A DNA stretch of 64,000 nt from Erysipelotrichaceae bacterium (GTDB lineage Bacteria; Bacillota_I; Bacilli_A; Erysipelotrichales; Erysipelotrichaceae): contig JAFRQF010000023.1 of NCBI GenBank assembly GCA_017428765.1, forward strand, positions 62,001 through 126,000. Reading direction: 5' to 3'. Position 1 is the stretch's first letter. Every line of letters begins with the position of its first letter. Shown piece by piece: positions 13,704 to 18,218 of this stretch. A model generated the notes under the pieces. It worked only from the letters and a program-made list of their open reading frames with translations, searched no databases and was not told the DNA's origin. A program made the translations under genes and the position numbers.

Positions 13704-13781
13704 ATGGAAGCTGCTGAAATCCCTTTATCGTGCATGTATGATCTGGCGGCTCTGGCTGAATCTTTTCTGCGTGTTCAGTAA
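13704..13781 (+). CDS. Putative 25-residue leader peptide of mgtA
   Basis: A short frame reading MEAAEIPLSCMYDLAALAES followed by FLRVQ and a TAA stop. AAGGAAAGGA precedes it, though the spacing (13 bases) is long. Codons 14-16 contain GGCGGCT (13745-13751), exactly complementary to AGCCGCC (13790-13796). That second segment can instead pair with GGAGGCT, which contains the ribosome site of the pump gene. A ribosome's position on this frame would therefore choose between the two structures, as in translated attenuator leaders. Coding status is inferred from this layout; the peptide itself has no relatives I recognise. Confidence 0.55.
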   Translation: MEAAEIPLSCMYDLAALAESFLRVQ

Positions 13782-13787
13782 GTAAGC

Positions 13788-13812
13788 AAAGCCGCCGTAC
13801 AGGAGGCTTTTT
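13788..13812 (+). promoter_or_regulatory. Hairpin masking the mgtA ribosome site
   Basis: AAAGCC (13788-13793) pairs with GGCTTT (13805-13810), with CC/GG inside (13795-13796 with 13802-13803), followed by TT. The 3' arm overlaps AGGAGG at 13801-13806, the ribosome site of the gene starting at 13815. It can act as a translation block and possibly as a terminator because the T run follows. Confidence 0.6.
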
Positions 13813-13814
13813 AT

Positions 13815-16430
13815 ATGGAAAAGAAAATCAAGAAAACAAACAGTAATGTCGAAGAAAAGCTGACATCTTTTTCTGTGCTTGCCCCGCAGGAAGTTTTCGA
13901 TCATTTCGGGATCAATAACGACGGGCTGAGCGGCGAACAGATAGAGAAAGGACAGGAACTTTACGGTCCCAACGTCATCAAAAGCGGCAAGAACGATTCG
14001 ATCTTCACCCGCTTGAAGGAAGCCATCATCAATCCTTTCAACATCGTCTTACTGGCGGTCGTGGCCGTGAGCTATTTTACCGATGTGGTCCTTTCGCCTG
14101 CGCCTTCCTATGCGACGATCATCATGCTGGTGATCATCGTGACGATCTCTTCGGCGACATCGTTCATCCAGTCGCAGAAATCCGATGAGGCTGCCAAAGC
14201 GCTGCAGCAGATGATCGTCACCAAAGTCAATGTGGTGCGTCAGGGCATGAAGAGACAGATCCCGATCGAAGACTGTGTGCCGGGAGACCTCGTCATACTC
14301 GGGTCCGGCGATCTGATACCGGGCGATGTGCGTTTCATCGAGACCAAGGACCTTTTCGTCGACCAGGCACAGCTGACCGGTGAATCCAATCCGGTGGAAA
14401 AATACGCGGACTTAAGGGACGGTGAGAACATCACCGATCTTTCCAATATCGGTTTCATGGGCTGTGATATCGTTTCCGGTGCGGCAAGGGCCATCATTCT
14501 GGCGACCGGCAATGACACCTATTTCGGTACGATGTCAAAGAGCCTGGAAGCGCAGAACGAGAAGTCGGTCTTCGATAAGAACATGGAGTCCATCACAAAG
14601 CTTCTGATCCGTTTCATGATGGTCATGGTACCGGTGATCTTCGCTGCCAACTATCTCACCAAGAACGACCTTCTGGATTCTCTGATCTTTGCGATCACGA
14701 TCGCCGTCGGTCTGATGCCGGAGATGCTTCCGGTCATGATCACTTCCTCGCTTGCCAAGGGTGCCATCTCGATGTCGAAGAAAAAGACCATCGTCAAAAA
14801 GCTCGGCTGCATTCAGACATTCGGTGAGATGGATATCTTATGTACCGATAAGACCGGAACACTGACCCAGGATGAAATCATCCTGGAGAAATATCTCGAT
14901 GCTTCGGGCAAGGAAGACATCAGGGTGCTTCGCCATGCCTTCTTGAACAGCTATTTCCAGACCGGACTCAAGAACCTGATGGACCGTGCCATCATCTCCC
15001 GAGGAGAGAAGGAAGGCCTGGATTATCTGAAGAAGTCCTATGTCAGGGAAGATGAGATCCCGTTCGATTTCGCAAGAAGAAAGATGTCGGTCGTGCTGCG
15101 TGACAGGAAACTCAAACGGCAGCTGATCACCAAGGGTGCGGTCGATGAGATCATCGCCAACTGTGCCTTCGTCGAGATCGAAGGGGAAGTGAAGCCGATG
15201 AACGAAGAACTTCGCAAGAACGCCTACCAGATCTCGGAAGACAACGGTGCGCAAGGCATCCGTGTCATCGCGGTCGCACAGAAAAACGAGATCCCGGATA
15301 TCGATGCCTTCACTTCCGAAGATGAAAAGGATATGGTCCTGTTGGGTTTCATCGGTTTCCTGGATCCTCCGAAAGAATCGGCGATCTCCGCGATCAAGGC
15401 GCTGAAAGACAATGGCATCCGAACGGTGGTCCTGACTGGTGACTCCAAGCAGGTCGCAGTCAATATCTGCGGCCGCATCGGCATCGACACGGAATACGCC
15501 TACTCCGGTCAGGATATCGAAATGATGAATGACGGTCAGCTCAAAAATGCCTGCAAGAAGGCGCAGATCTTTGCCAAGCTCAATCCTTTGCAGAAGAAGC
15601 GCATCGTCGAGACCTTCCAGGAACTCGGACATGTGGTGGGCTATATGGGTGACGGCATCAACGATGCACCGCCTTTGAAACAGGCTGATGTCGGCATCTC
15701 CGTGGATACGGCCGTCGATATCGCCAAGGAAGTGGCGGACATCATCCTTCTGGAAAAAGATCTCAATGTCCTGGATGAGGGCGTCAAAGAGGGCAGAAGG
15801 ACCTTTGCCAATATGAACAAGTATCTCAAGATGGCGATCTCCGGCAACTTCGGAAATATGATCTCCGTTCTGATCGCTTCGCTGGCTCTGCCGTTCCTGC
15901 CTCTCAAGCCGGTCCACATCCTGGTACAGAATATCCTCAATGACTTCGCCCAGTTCGGCATGCCTTACGACAATGTCGAAAAAGAGTATATCGAAAAGCC
16001 GATGGAATGGGATACGGATTCCTTGAAACAGTTCATGTTCTATTTCGGCCTGACTTCAACACTATTGGATGTCCTGTGCTTTGCGGTGCTGTGGTTCATC
16101 TTCGGCTATAAGACGCCGGAAAAGGCCGAATACTTCCAGTGCGGCTGGTTCATCTTCGGCGTCATCTCACAGACCCTGGTCATCCATACCATCCGTACGC
16201 ATAAGCTGCCGTTTGCCTCAGGCAAGGCAGGAAGGGAACTGATCATTTCCACACTGGCGGTCGTAGTGATCACGCTTGTCATCGGTATGAGCGATCTGGC
16301 GTACATCCTGGATATGAAGCCGCTTCCTTATACGTATCTGATCTATCTGGGGATCCTGATGGTCGTGTACATGCTGATCGCCCAGATCATGAAGAACATC
16401 TACATCAAACGATTCAAGAAGTGGATCTGA
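13815..16430 (+). CDS. mgtA: Magnesium-translocating P-type ATPase
   Basis: An 871-residue P3B-type pump that imports Mg2+ using ATP. Seen in order: actuator loop QAQLTGESNPVEK near 190, membrane motif VGLMPEMLPVMI near 300 (the MPE-P signature of MgtA/MgtB), phosphorylation site DKTGTLT near 350, nucleotide domain with KGAVDEI, hinge TGDSKQVAVNICGRIGI, GDGINDAPPLKQADVGISVD near 620, and the late MgtA motif QNILNDFAQFGMPYDNV. Ten membrane helices fit. AGGAGG precedes ATG 13815 at 8 bases and is itself part of a hairpin. It lies between a leader frame and an MgtE-like protein, so control by Mg2+ status is likely. Confidence 0.95.
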   Translation: MEKKIKKTNSNVEEKLTSFSVLAPQEVFDHFGINNDGLSGEQIEKGQELYGPNVIKSGKNDSIFTRLKEAIINPFNIVLLAVVAVSYFTDVVLSPAPSYATIIMLVIIVTISSATSFIQSQKSDEAAKALQQMIVTKVNVVRQGMKRQIPIEDCVPGDLVILGSGDLIPGDVRFIETKDLFVDQAQLTGESNPVEKYADLRDGENITDLSNIGFMGCDIVSGAARAIILATGNDTYFGTMSKSLEAQNEKSVFDKNMESITKLLIRFMMVMVPVIFAANYLTKNDLLDSLIFAITIAVGLMPEMLPVMITSSLAKGAISMSKKKTIVKKLGCIQTFGEMDILCTDKTGTLTQDEIILEKYLDASGKEDIRVLRHAFLNSYFQTGLKNLMDRAIISRGEKEGLDYLKKSYVREDEIPFDFARRKMSVVLRDRKLKRQLITKGAVDEIIANCAFVEIEGEVKPMNEELRKNAYQISEDNGAQGIRVIAVAQKNEIPDIDAFTSEDEKDMVLLGFIGFLDPPKESAISAIKALKDNGIRTVVLTGDSKQVAVNICGRIGIDTEYAYSGQDIEMMNDGQLKNACKKAQIFAKLNPLQKKRIVETFQELGHVVGYMGDGINDAPPLKQADVGISVDTAVDIAKEVADIILLEKDLNVLDEGVKEGRRTFANMNKYLKMAISGNFGNMISVLIASLALPFLPLKPVHILVQNILNDFAQFGMPYDNVEKEYIEKPMEWDTDSLKQFMFYFGLTSTLLDVLCFAVLWFIFGYKTPEKAEYFQCGWFIFGVISQTLVIHTIRTHKLPFASGKAGRELIISTLAVVVITLVIGMSDLAYILDMKPLPYTYLIYLGILMVVYMLIAQIMKNIYIKRFKKWI

Positions 16431-16445: not shown

Positions 16446-17447
16446 ATGGAAAACAAATATCTGGAAGAAAATATCGAAGAAAGAAATTACACACAGGAGA
16501 TCTTCGATCTCATACGCAAAACCAAGAATTCCAAACTGCTGGCGCAGACGCTGACCAACTATCACGACAACGATATCGCGGACGCTCTGACCTACCTTTC
16601 ACCGGATGAAAGAAAACGTCTGTACAAGGCCATCGGCATCGAAGCGACATCGAGGATCTTTGCGTATCTGGATGAAGATGTCGACAAGTATTTTGCCGAA
16701 CTGGAAAACGAATCGGCTGCCGATATCTTAGAAGAAATGGATGCCGACGATGCGATCGATATCCTGGAAGAACTCGATGAGAAGAAGGCCAACGAGATCA
16801 TCTCCCTCATCGAACCGGAGTCCAAGTCCGATATCCAGCTCTTACAGTCCTATGAAGACGATGAGTTCGGTTCTCTGATGACTACCAACTACATCACGCT
16901 GGAATATGGCATCGGCATCAAGAAGTCGATCGAACAGCTCATCGAAGAGGCGGAAGAAAACGACAATATCGAGACGTTATACATCGTGAAGGATGGCAAG
17001 TTCTATGGTGCCCTGACTTTGCGTGACCTTCTGATCACCAAGAAAGATGAGGATCTCGATGAGAAGATCATCCTGTCCTATCCGTTTGTTTACGATAAAG
17101 AGAAGATCACCGATGCGGCGATCGATACGCTGGCGGACTATTCCGAAGATTCCATTCCGGTACTGGATAAGGAAACAAATGAGATCTTAGGCGTCATCAC
17201 ATCCGCCGACATCGTCGAGCTGATCAATGAAGAAGAAGAGGAACTGCAGGAAGAAGAAAAGCAGAAGGTCTCAGAGGCGGAAAAGGGATTCGATACCCTG
17301 GAAGTCATCGCTGCCGTATTGCTTCTGCTGGTAGCGGTCAACAGACTTTTCGGCGTCTTACCTTCGACCAGCTATATCGAAGCACTGCTCATTCTTGCCG
17401 CCCTGGCACTGGCAGTCTGCAGCAGACTCAAACTGAGGAAACAATGA
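16446..17447 (+). CDS. MgtE-like Mg2+-sensing module without channel domain
   Basis: A 333-residue protein. Residues about 30-145 match the MgtE N-terminal superhelical domain (DNDIADALTYLSPDERKRLY, ILEEMDADDAIDILEEL), and about 150-275 hold a pair of CBS domains (GSLMTTNYITLEYG; IPVLDKETNEILGVITSADI). In MgtE these parts bind Mg2+ and gate a five-helix pore. Here the pore is absent: after an EEEEELQEEEKQK linker there are only two hydrophobic segments (about 287-307 and 312-328) and a basic end. About 450 residues would be expected for MgtE. It starts 15 bases after mgtA with AAAGGAG, so it is in the same operon. It may sense cytosolic Mg2+ and regulate the pump; this is inference. Confidence 0.85.
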   Translation: MENKYLEENIEERNYTQEIFDLIRKTKNSKLLAQTLTNYHDNDIADALTYLSPDERKRLYKAIGIEATSRIFAYLDEDVDKYFAELENESAADILEEMDADDAIDILEELDEKKANEIISLIEPESKSDIQLLQSYEDDEFGSLMTTNYITLEYGIGIKKSIEQLIEEAEENDNIETLYIVKDGKFYGALTLRDLLITKKDEDLDEKIILSYPFVYDKEKITDAAIDTLADYSEDSIPVLDKETNEILGVITSADIVELINEEEEELQEEEKQKVSEAEKGFDTLEVIAAVLLLLVAVNRLFGVLPSTSYIEALLILAALALAVCSRLKLRKQ

Positions 17448-17459
17448 TACCATTGTAGT

Positions 17460-18218
17460 GTGGAAGCAAAGATCTTCAAAGTCACAAAAGCCGTTTCCTA
17501 TCTATGCATCATCTATGGCCTGATCGTCTTGTTTTTGATCGGGCCTTTTCATATCTTCAATTTCTTTTATCTGCTGATAGGGATCATCCTGTTTATGCTT
17601 TGCCGTTACCGCGTTTCGATACGCAAAAAGATCGGCATGAAGGCGTGTCGGATCCTGAACGGGCTGATCCTTACTTTCGTCACTGTCTTCCTTCTTTTTG
17701 AAATATGGATCATTTCGTTCAGCTTACGTCCCTGTGCCAGGGACGCGGACCATCTCATCGTCTTAGGTTCTTACATTTCCGAAACCGGTCCTTCTATGGA
17801 CTATAAGGCAAGACTCGACAGCGCTTATGCCTATCTTATGGAAAATGAAAAGACGATCGCGATCACGACCGGTGCCAAAGGGCCCAATGAGCCTGTCAGC
17901 GAGGGAGAAGGCGGCAGAAGATATCTGATCGAAAAGGGGATAAAAGAGGATAGGATCCTGGCGGAAACGGAAAGCTATAATACGGCGGAGAACATCGCCA
18001 ATGCGAAAAAGCTGATCGGTAAAGATGCCGGCCAAAATAAGATCGTCATCGTCTCCGCTGACTACCATCTTTTCAGGGCATATTATCTGGCAAAGCTGGC
18101 AGGTTTTCAGAACGTCTCCTGCAAAGGAGGGCACGGACTGTTCGCCCTGCTGCCGCAATACTACACGAGAGAATTCTTTGCCTTTGTCAAGGAACTGCTG
18201 TTTACCCGTAGCGCATGA
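17460..18218 (+). CDS. YdcF-family membrane protein (DUF218)
   Basis: A 252-residue protein with two or three N-terminal membrane segments (about 10-30, 33-50 and 65-85) and a DUF218 domain from about 95: ADHLIVLGSYI, SAYAYLMENEKTIAITTGAKG, ESYNTAENIANAKKLI and KIVIVSADYHLFRAYYLAKLAGF, as in SanA/ElyC/YdcF. Relatives act in cell-envelope or SAM-linked processes; the exact role is unknown. The proposed start is GTG 17460, which has no ribosome site but lies 6 bases after TGATACCAT (an extended -10-like element), so it may be leaderless; a later start would remove membrane helices. Its stop overlaps the next start in ATGA. Confidence 0.82.
   Translation: MEAKIFKVTKAVSYLCIIYGLIVLFLIGPFHIFNFFYLLIGIILFMLCRYRVSIRKKIGMKACRILNGLILTFVTVFLLFEIWIISFSLRPCARDADHLIVLGSYISETGPSMDYKARLDSAYAYLMENEKTIAITTGAKGPNEPVSEGEGGRRYLIEKGIKEDRILAETESYNTAENIANAKKLIGKDAGQNKIVIVSADYHLFRAYYLAKLAGFQNVSCKGGHGLFALLPQYYTREFFAFVKELLFTRSA

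Follow-up and report, generated by a model that had tools for sequence, protein, structure and literature searches.

A stand-alone MgtE-derived sensor module encoded with mgtA in Erysipelotrichaceae, probably a magnesium-sensing subunit of the pump

The window, a stretch of 64,000 nucleotides from an Erysipelotrichaceae bacterium, encodes directly behind mgtA, the gene of a Mg2+-importing P-type ATPase, a protein composed of the sensor domains of the Mg2+ channel MgtE, devoid of the channel pore and ending in two hydrophobic helices. We propose, with a probability of about 0.6, that this module serves MgtA as a dedicated Mg2+-sensing regulatory subunit, derived from a single truncation of an MgtE, which binds the pump and slows it at high Mg2+. 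This proposal is built on the architecture of the protein, the gene pair, its single origin, its strict partner specificity, the purifying selection acting on it and its partial retention of Mg2+ ligands, from which we infer Mg2+ binding, contact with MgtA, and inhibition rather than activation or stabilisation. The module would probably represent the pump's own magnesium sensor and probably be inhibitory at high Mg2+.

The sequence-only reading of this region described a free-standing protein with the N domain and CBS pair of MgtE, no five-helix pore and two short C-terminal helices, and this description is upheld by profile searches, alignments to crystal structures and hydropathy. Pfam places MgtE_N (PF03448) at residues 39-139 (3.4e-22) and one CBS domain at residues 142-196 (4.2e-11), the second CBS being visible, up to residue 264, in the alignment to MgtE crystal structures (2oux, 2yvy). 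The mgtE profile TIGR00400 aligns with residues 25-301 at 113 bits, below its cut-off of 232.75, and the alignment stops at position 297 of the 450 of the profile. The five-helix pore domain bearing the Mg1 site (PF01769) gave no Pfam match in the module protein, and the pore column D432 is absent. Two transmembrane-like 19-mers per sequence were found by hydropathy in 12/12 module sequences tested. When the tail was aligned with TM1-2 of MgtE using hhalign, the linker alone was aligned (probability 24%), and the two helices may be either new or remnants of TM1-2. The coordinates of these features and of those discussed below are given in Table 1.

Table 1. Positions of the features of the mgtA-module locus in the window
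Feature	Position	Strand	Description
Candidate leader ORF (uORF)	13704..13781	+	25 aa, MEAAEIPLSCMYDLAALAESFLRVQ
P1 (GGCGGCT)	13745..13751	+	Lies within the leader ORF; anti-sequestor, partner of P2
P2 (AAAGCCGCC)	13788..13796	+	Pairs with P1 or alternatively with P3
P3 (GGAGGCTTT)	13802..13810	+	Ribosome-binding site of mgtA, which pairing with P2 can hide
mgtA, Mg2+-importing P-type ATPase	13815..16430	+	871 aa; TIGR01524 1014.9 bits, cut-off 610.75
Stand-alone MgtE N domain, CBS pair and two-helix anchor (main finding)	16446..17447	+	333 aa; ATG at 16446 preceded by AGGAG, stop codon at 17445-17447
Acidic linker from the CBS pair to the first hydrophobic helix	17229..17303	+	Alignment of 12 orthologous tails
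Two hydrophobic helices with invariant Glu312	17304..17444	+	19-mers from residues 287 and 310; tail alignment

A membrane domain of MgtE overlooked downstream would have contradicted the description, but the next gene encodes an unrelated DUF218 protein, so that no pore domain was missed; together with the agreement of 23 species, this rules out a missed pore or a frameshift. The DUF218 (ElyC/SanA-like) gene lies 12 nt behind the module (17460-18218). It was rejected as a part of the mgtA-module unit, as only the window and its two closest species have it beside the module. A similar gene is found upstream of a module-less mgtA at another locus (L189).

The sequence-only reading also took the module to be co-encoded with MgtA, and the upstream gene is indeed a bona fide mgtA, whose stop codon is followed 15 nt later by the module start, with no terminator-like site between them. 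Its product belongs to the P-type IIIB Mg2+ ATPases: it scores above the TIGR01524 cut-off, carries the catalytic phosphorylation Asp (D345) and has an intact Mg2+ site I, the ligands N681, S748, D752, S785, E303 and D710, equivalents of those of E. coli MgtA (PMC10925321), being conserved. The search for the same architecture beside mgtA in other genomes, which that reading had called for, located it in 23 MAG species belonging to three genera of one Erysipelotrichaceae-type family, with orthologues of 314-344 aa. Within the genus of the window, 16/36 species have it, the other copies sharing 72-85% identity with that of the window over about 330 aa and one being cut by a contig end; an order-wide search and one follow-up added seven genomes from two other genera of the family (341-364 aa stop to stop). 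In public records the hosts are named Erysipelotrichaceae bacterium or Solobacterium sp., mostly MAGs from the ruminant gut, and nearly all genomes behind this distribution are MAGs. The module is located directly 3' of mgtA in 23/23 module-bearing genomes, with a spacing of about 13-19 nt; in two of them (G032 and G306) the operon is broken by a contig end, yet the join can still be seen. The genes flanking the pair differ between genera while the pair stays, which designates the pair itself as the conserved unit. A full-length MgtE was found directly behind mgtA in none of about 70 loci from Erysipelotrichaceae, Lachnospiraceae and others; at one full-length MgtE locus (L122), a P-type ATPase 37% identical to the MgtA of the window is encoded nearby on the opposite strand. 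Beyond the family the search covered a sample of genomes, and no stand-alone module was detected elsewhere in the phylum at E <= 1e-40 among 392 sampled genomes besides the window's own.

The presence of the module follows the lineage of the pump. It is always present with an MgtA 65-100% identical to that of the window and never with one at or below 57%, even within the same genus, the latter including those of two congeners (G028, G030) and of three genomes of genus g56 (G223, G259, G295). Another 20 mgtA loci from the family and 29 from the class are likewise without it. The module therefore accompanies a single clade of MgtA and is missing from the sister clades of the pump. In a tree of 61 sequences, all 20 modules form a single clade (support 100/99), indicating one truncation event of an MgtE; the sister of this clade is the full-length MgtE of Solobacterium sp. 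UBA1789 (support 100/98). Linkage and partner-specific distribution, the marks of an accessory subunit of MgtA, are thus both observed, and the adjacency in all module-bearing genomes, for which MgtA clades lacking the module and MgtE genes retaining the pore served as negative controls, makes MgtA the likely partner of the module. The suggestion of the sequence-only reading, that the module may inhibit or activate the pump at the membrane, is supported in part. Two genomes of the same class (G329 and G342), which are small and TGA-reading, contain three MgtA-family genes each, two of which lie no more than a few kb apart.

In the pump, only 22 residues are specific to the module-bearing clade, and no obvious patch emerges from their positions in the sequence. 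The idea that the module makes up for lost cytosolic sites of MgtA is not supported, the site II and III residues being alike in module-bearing and module-less pumps. MgtA, a pump of low-Mg2+ conditions, is less active when Mg2+ is high, and small membrane proteins bind to it (PMC10710835, PMC10925321). Elsewhere it is itself inhibited by Mg2+ (reviewed in PMC10710835), so that an additional sensor is not indispensable; cytosolic Mg2+ sensing is considered a question in the MgtA literature and the mechanism of this inhibition is unknown (PMC10710835, PMC10925321).

The selection acting on the module is concentrated on its sensor part. Across 12 species, pN/pS reaches 0.118 for the N domain and CBS pair (pS 0.63), 0.556 for the linker and helices and 0.171 for MgtA. 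In 15 species pairs drawn from six species in which a module and a full-length MgtE coexist, the mean pN is 0.067 for the N domain and CBS pair of the module, 0.144 for those of MgtE, 0.098 for the membrane part of MgtE and 0.100 for MgtA. Non-synonymous change in the module sensor is thus about half as fast as in the corresponding domains of the full-length MgtE of the same species, and also slower than in the pump. A freed sensor more constrained than its counterpart within the channel is what would be expected if it had gained a binding partner. Several residues that never vary among the modules but are rare in MgtE lie together in the N-terminal helix (R13, F20, D21, K25, T26), which is a candidate partner interface on this basis; Y50, A84, K114, A115, F141, E167 and others are similarly module-specific.

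The Mg2+ sites were mapped by alignment to T. thermophilus MgtE, with site roles taken from PMC5882242 and the ATP pocket from PMC5529423; the reference sequence used agrees with the PDB chain over residues 18-257 and matches the papers at all cited site letters. The equivalents of D91 and D247 (Mg4), D95 (Mg6), D250 (as E) and E258 are invariant in the modules. At the position of the Mg7 ligand E59 the modules have R, H, N or D; they have also lost the Mg3 ligand D259, and the equivalent of D226 is S or D. Given the loss of E59 and D259 and the absence of D432, sensing by the module may be weaker or different. As judged from these residues, Mg2+ sensing is plausible and an affinity changed relative to MgtE is likely.

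In the mechanism that we propose, the N domain and the CBS pair, probably dimeric as in MgtE, would read cytosolic Mg2+, and the two transmembrane helices would anchor the module in the membrane next to MgtA, both proteins being translated from one mRNA. In MgtE, millimolar Mg2+ causes the N/CBS part to become compact (PMC5882242). At high cytosolic Mg2+, occupancy of the acidic N/CBS sites would lock the module in a compact form, which would dock on MgtA, slow its cycle and stop wasteful uptake; when Mg2+ falls, the module would loosen and the pump would be released.

The main rival to this mechanism is a stabilising or destabilising effect on MgtA, the module acting not on turnover but, Mg2+-bound or free, by protecting the pump from a membrane protease or presenting it to one. 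MgtS and MgtR, membrane peptides that bind MgtA and alter its degradation (PMC10710835, PMC10925321), provide a precedent, and the fast-evolving two-helix tail with its one invariant Glu could act likewise. However, the slowest-evolving part of the protein is the Mg2+-sensing one, which is left unexplained unless stability is itself gated by Mg2+, and we hold such an effect to be unlikely. CBS pairs often bind nucleotides, and the module could sense ATP, AMP or a dinucleotide, not Mg2+, coupling the pump to the energy state, a role that appears improbable when its residues are considered. MgtE of T. thermophilus binds ATP via Y170, R187, D188, N203 and F227 (PMC5529423), and the equivalents of R187 and D188 are invariant in the modules, whereas those of Y170, N203, V207 and F227 are T, I/M, P and E in all of them; with Y170, N203 and F227 replaced, the known adenine pocket is not kept.

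The module might alternatively be a dominant partner of full-length MgtE, mixed dimers setting the Mg2+ threshold and the position behind mgtA merely giving expression at low Mg2+. The two proteins have the same domains, the module is 41% identical to the MgtE of its own genome, and most module genomes also hold an MgtE. Nevertheless, three module genomes with a completeness of at least 90% are without any MgtE pore domain, gaps in the MAGs being a caveat to this count, and the module follows the MgtA clade and not the presence of MgtE. MgtE is therefore not an obligatory partner, and the part of such a partnership in the function of the module seems very doubtful. Finally, the truncation and the variable C-terminal tail could evoke a decaying MgtE hitch-hiking behind mgtA, but the frame is open in 23 species and the low pN/pS, which rules out a pseudogene, together with a rate slower than that of the intact MgtE sensor, refutes this explanation, to which we give practically no credit.

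Compared with known systems, the module resembles the MgtE channel (T. thermophilus 2yvx/2yvy; 2oux) by its N domain, CBS pair and some Mg2+ ligands (E 7e-20 to 1e-17), but it lacks the PF01769 pore and D432, has an acidic linker and two hydrophobic helices in place of the plug-helix end, and is encoded with a P-type pump. Like the enteric MgtS, MgtR and MgtU, it would be a membrane-anchored accessory protein of the Mg2+ P-type ATPases MgtA/MgtB (PMC10710835); these are, however, peptides without a sensor domain, whereas the module has a cytosolic part of 260 aa resembling a Mg2+ sensor. CorB/CorC (CNNM) proteins also use a CBS pair for Mg2+/ATP-sensing control of a Mg2+ transporter (PMC10710835), but there it is fused to their own transport domain, while the module is a separate protein without one. 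Pore-less proteins with MgtE_N and CBS domains exist in other phyla, for example at five loci (L124, L127, L128, L132, L134); they differ from the module by an identity of about 30%, a length of 415-457 aa stop to stop, a long, other N-terminus and an end soon after the CBS domains, and no mgtA was found near them within the fetched loci. At seven loci of Chloroflexi, Geobacter, Desulfosporosinus and Cryosericum, these five included, the pore-less MgtE_N-CBS part stands at the C-terminus of proteins of about 415-457 aa and away from mgtA, representing another stand-alone use of the sensor. No description of a protein such as the module was found in the open-access papers searched.

The leader of mgtA (13704-13814) contains a short ORF and alternative hairpins which are likely a second control of the pump gene. 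The leader ORF of the window starts with MEAAEIPLS (MESAEIPLS in L067), and the motif M[ED]xxx[ED]xPLS, or one close to MExxExPLS, was found in 14/14 leaders of the window genus examined, with acidic positions 2 and 5, PLS at positions 7-9 and a variable C-terminus. At the DNA level, the leader pattern occurs once per genome in 14/36 congeners and not at all in a reversed-pattern control. In 19 species, the P1:P2 pairing is standard in 127/133 cells, with two-sided changes GC>AT, CG>TA and TA>CG, and the P2:P3 pairing in 149/152 cells, one constant mismatch column being left out, with two-sided changes GC>CG and GC>AT; in both pairings, these changes are confined to the few sequences from the two other genera. 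Folding of the whole leader gives the P1:P2 form and omission of the 5' part with P1 gives the hairpin hiding the ribosome-binding site (RBS), the energy of the whole leader being not unusual compared with shuffled sequences (z 0.19). No M-box or other Rfam riboswitch was detected before mgtA at E values up to 1. Elsewhere in the window, a purine riboswitch aptamer (RF00167) is located at 1377-1478 (72.8 bits).

This organisation recalls Salmonella mgtQ, where Asp2 and Glu5 of the uORF abort translation and free the RBS of mgtB (PMC8092293): acidic codons 2 and 5, together with mutually exclusive hairpins hiding or freeing the RBS of the pump, are found in almost every leader from the genus of the window. 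The E. coli MgtL similarly starts with MEPDPTPLP. The present leader differs in being a 5' leader of mgtA in Bacillota, and the likeness to mgtQ and mgtL may be convergence. By analogy, at low Mg2+ translation of the leader would abort early, P1:P2 would form and mgtA would be translated, whereas translation of the leader to its end would disrupt P1 and let P2 hide the RBS of mgtA; such a Mg2+-dependent logic is likely. Seven leaders from the two sister genera share the hairpin layout but encode another conserved peptide, MS/MTxxx[DN]DYHS[RK]...GGHAA (e.g. MSQTNDYHSR). In two congeners without the module, the leader starts MEDPLS. Short ORFs starting MEDPLS, MEDSP or MEDSQ also precede module-less mgtA genes at five loci of the family or class, suggesting that leaders with an acidic/proline start may be common before mgtA in Bacillota. 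Literature searches found no description of such a leader in Bacillota.

The combination of a P-type ATPase with a detachable metal sensor subunit derived from a channel and with a Mg2+-sensitive uORF would place two Mg2+ feedback loops on one transcript, a broader picture that we advance tentatively, at somewhat less than even odds. In this picture, the soluble gate of one transporter family would have been recruited to gate an unrelated one. A sensor available as a separate, well-understood module would make Mg2+ sensing by MgtA directly testable, and would show that one transporter family can take over the sensor domains of another in the form of a separate protein.
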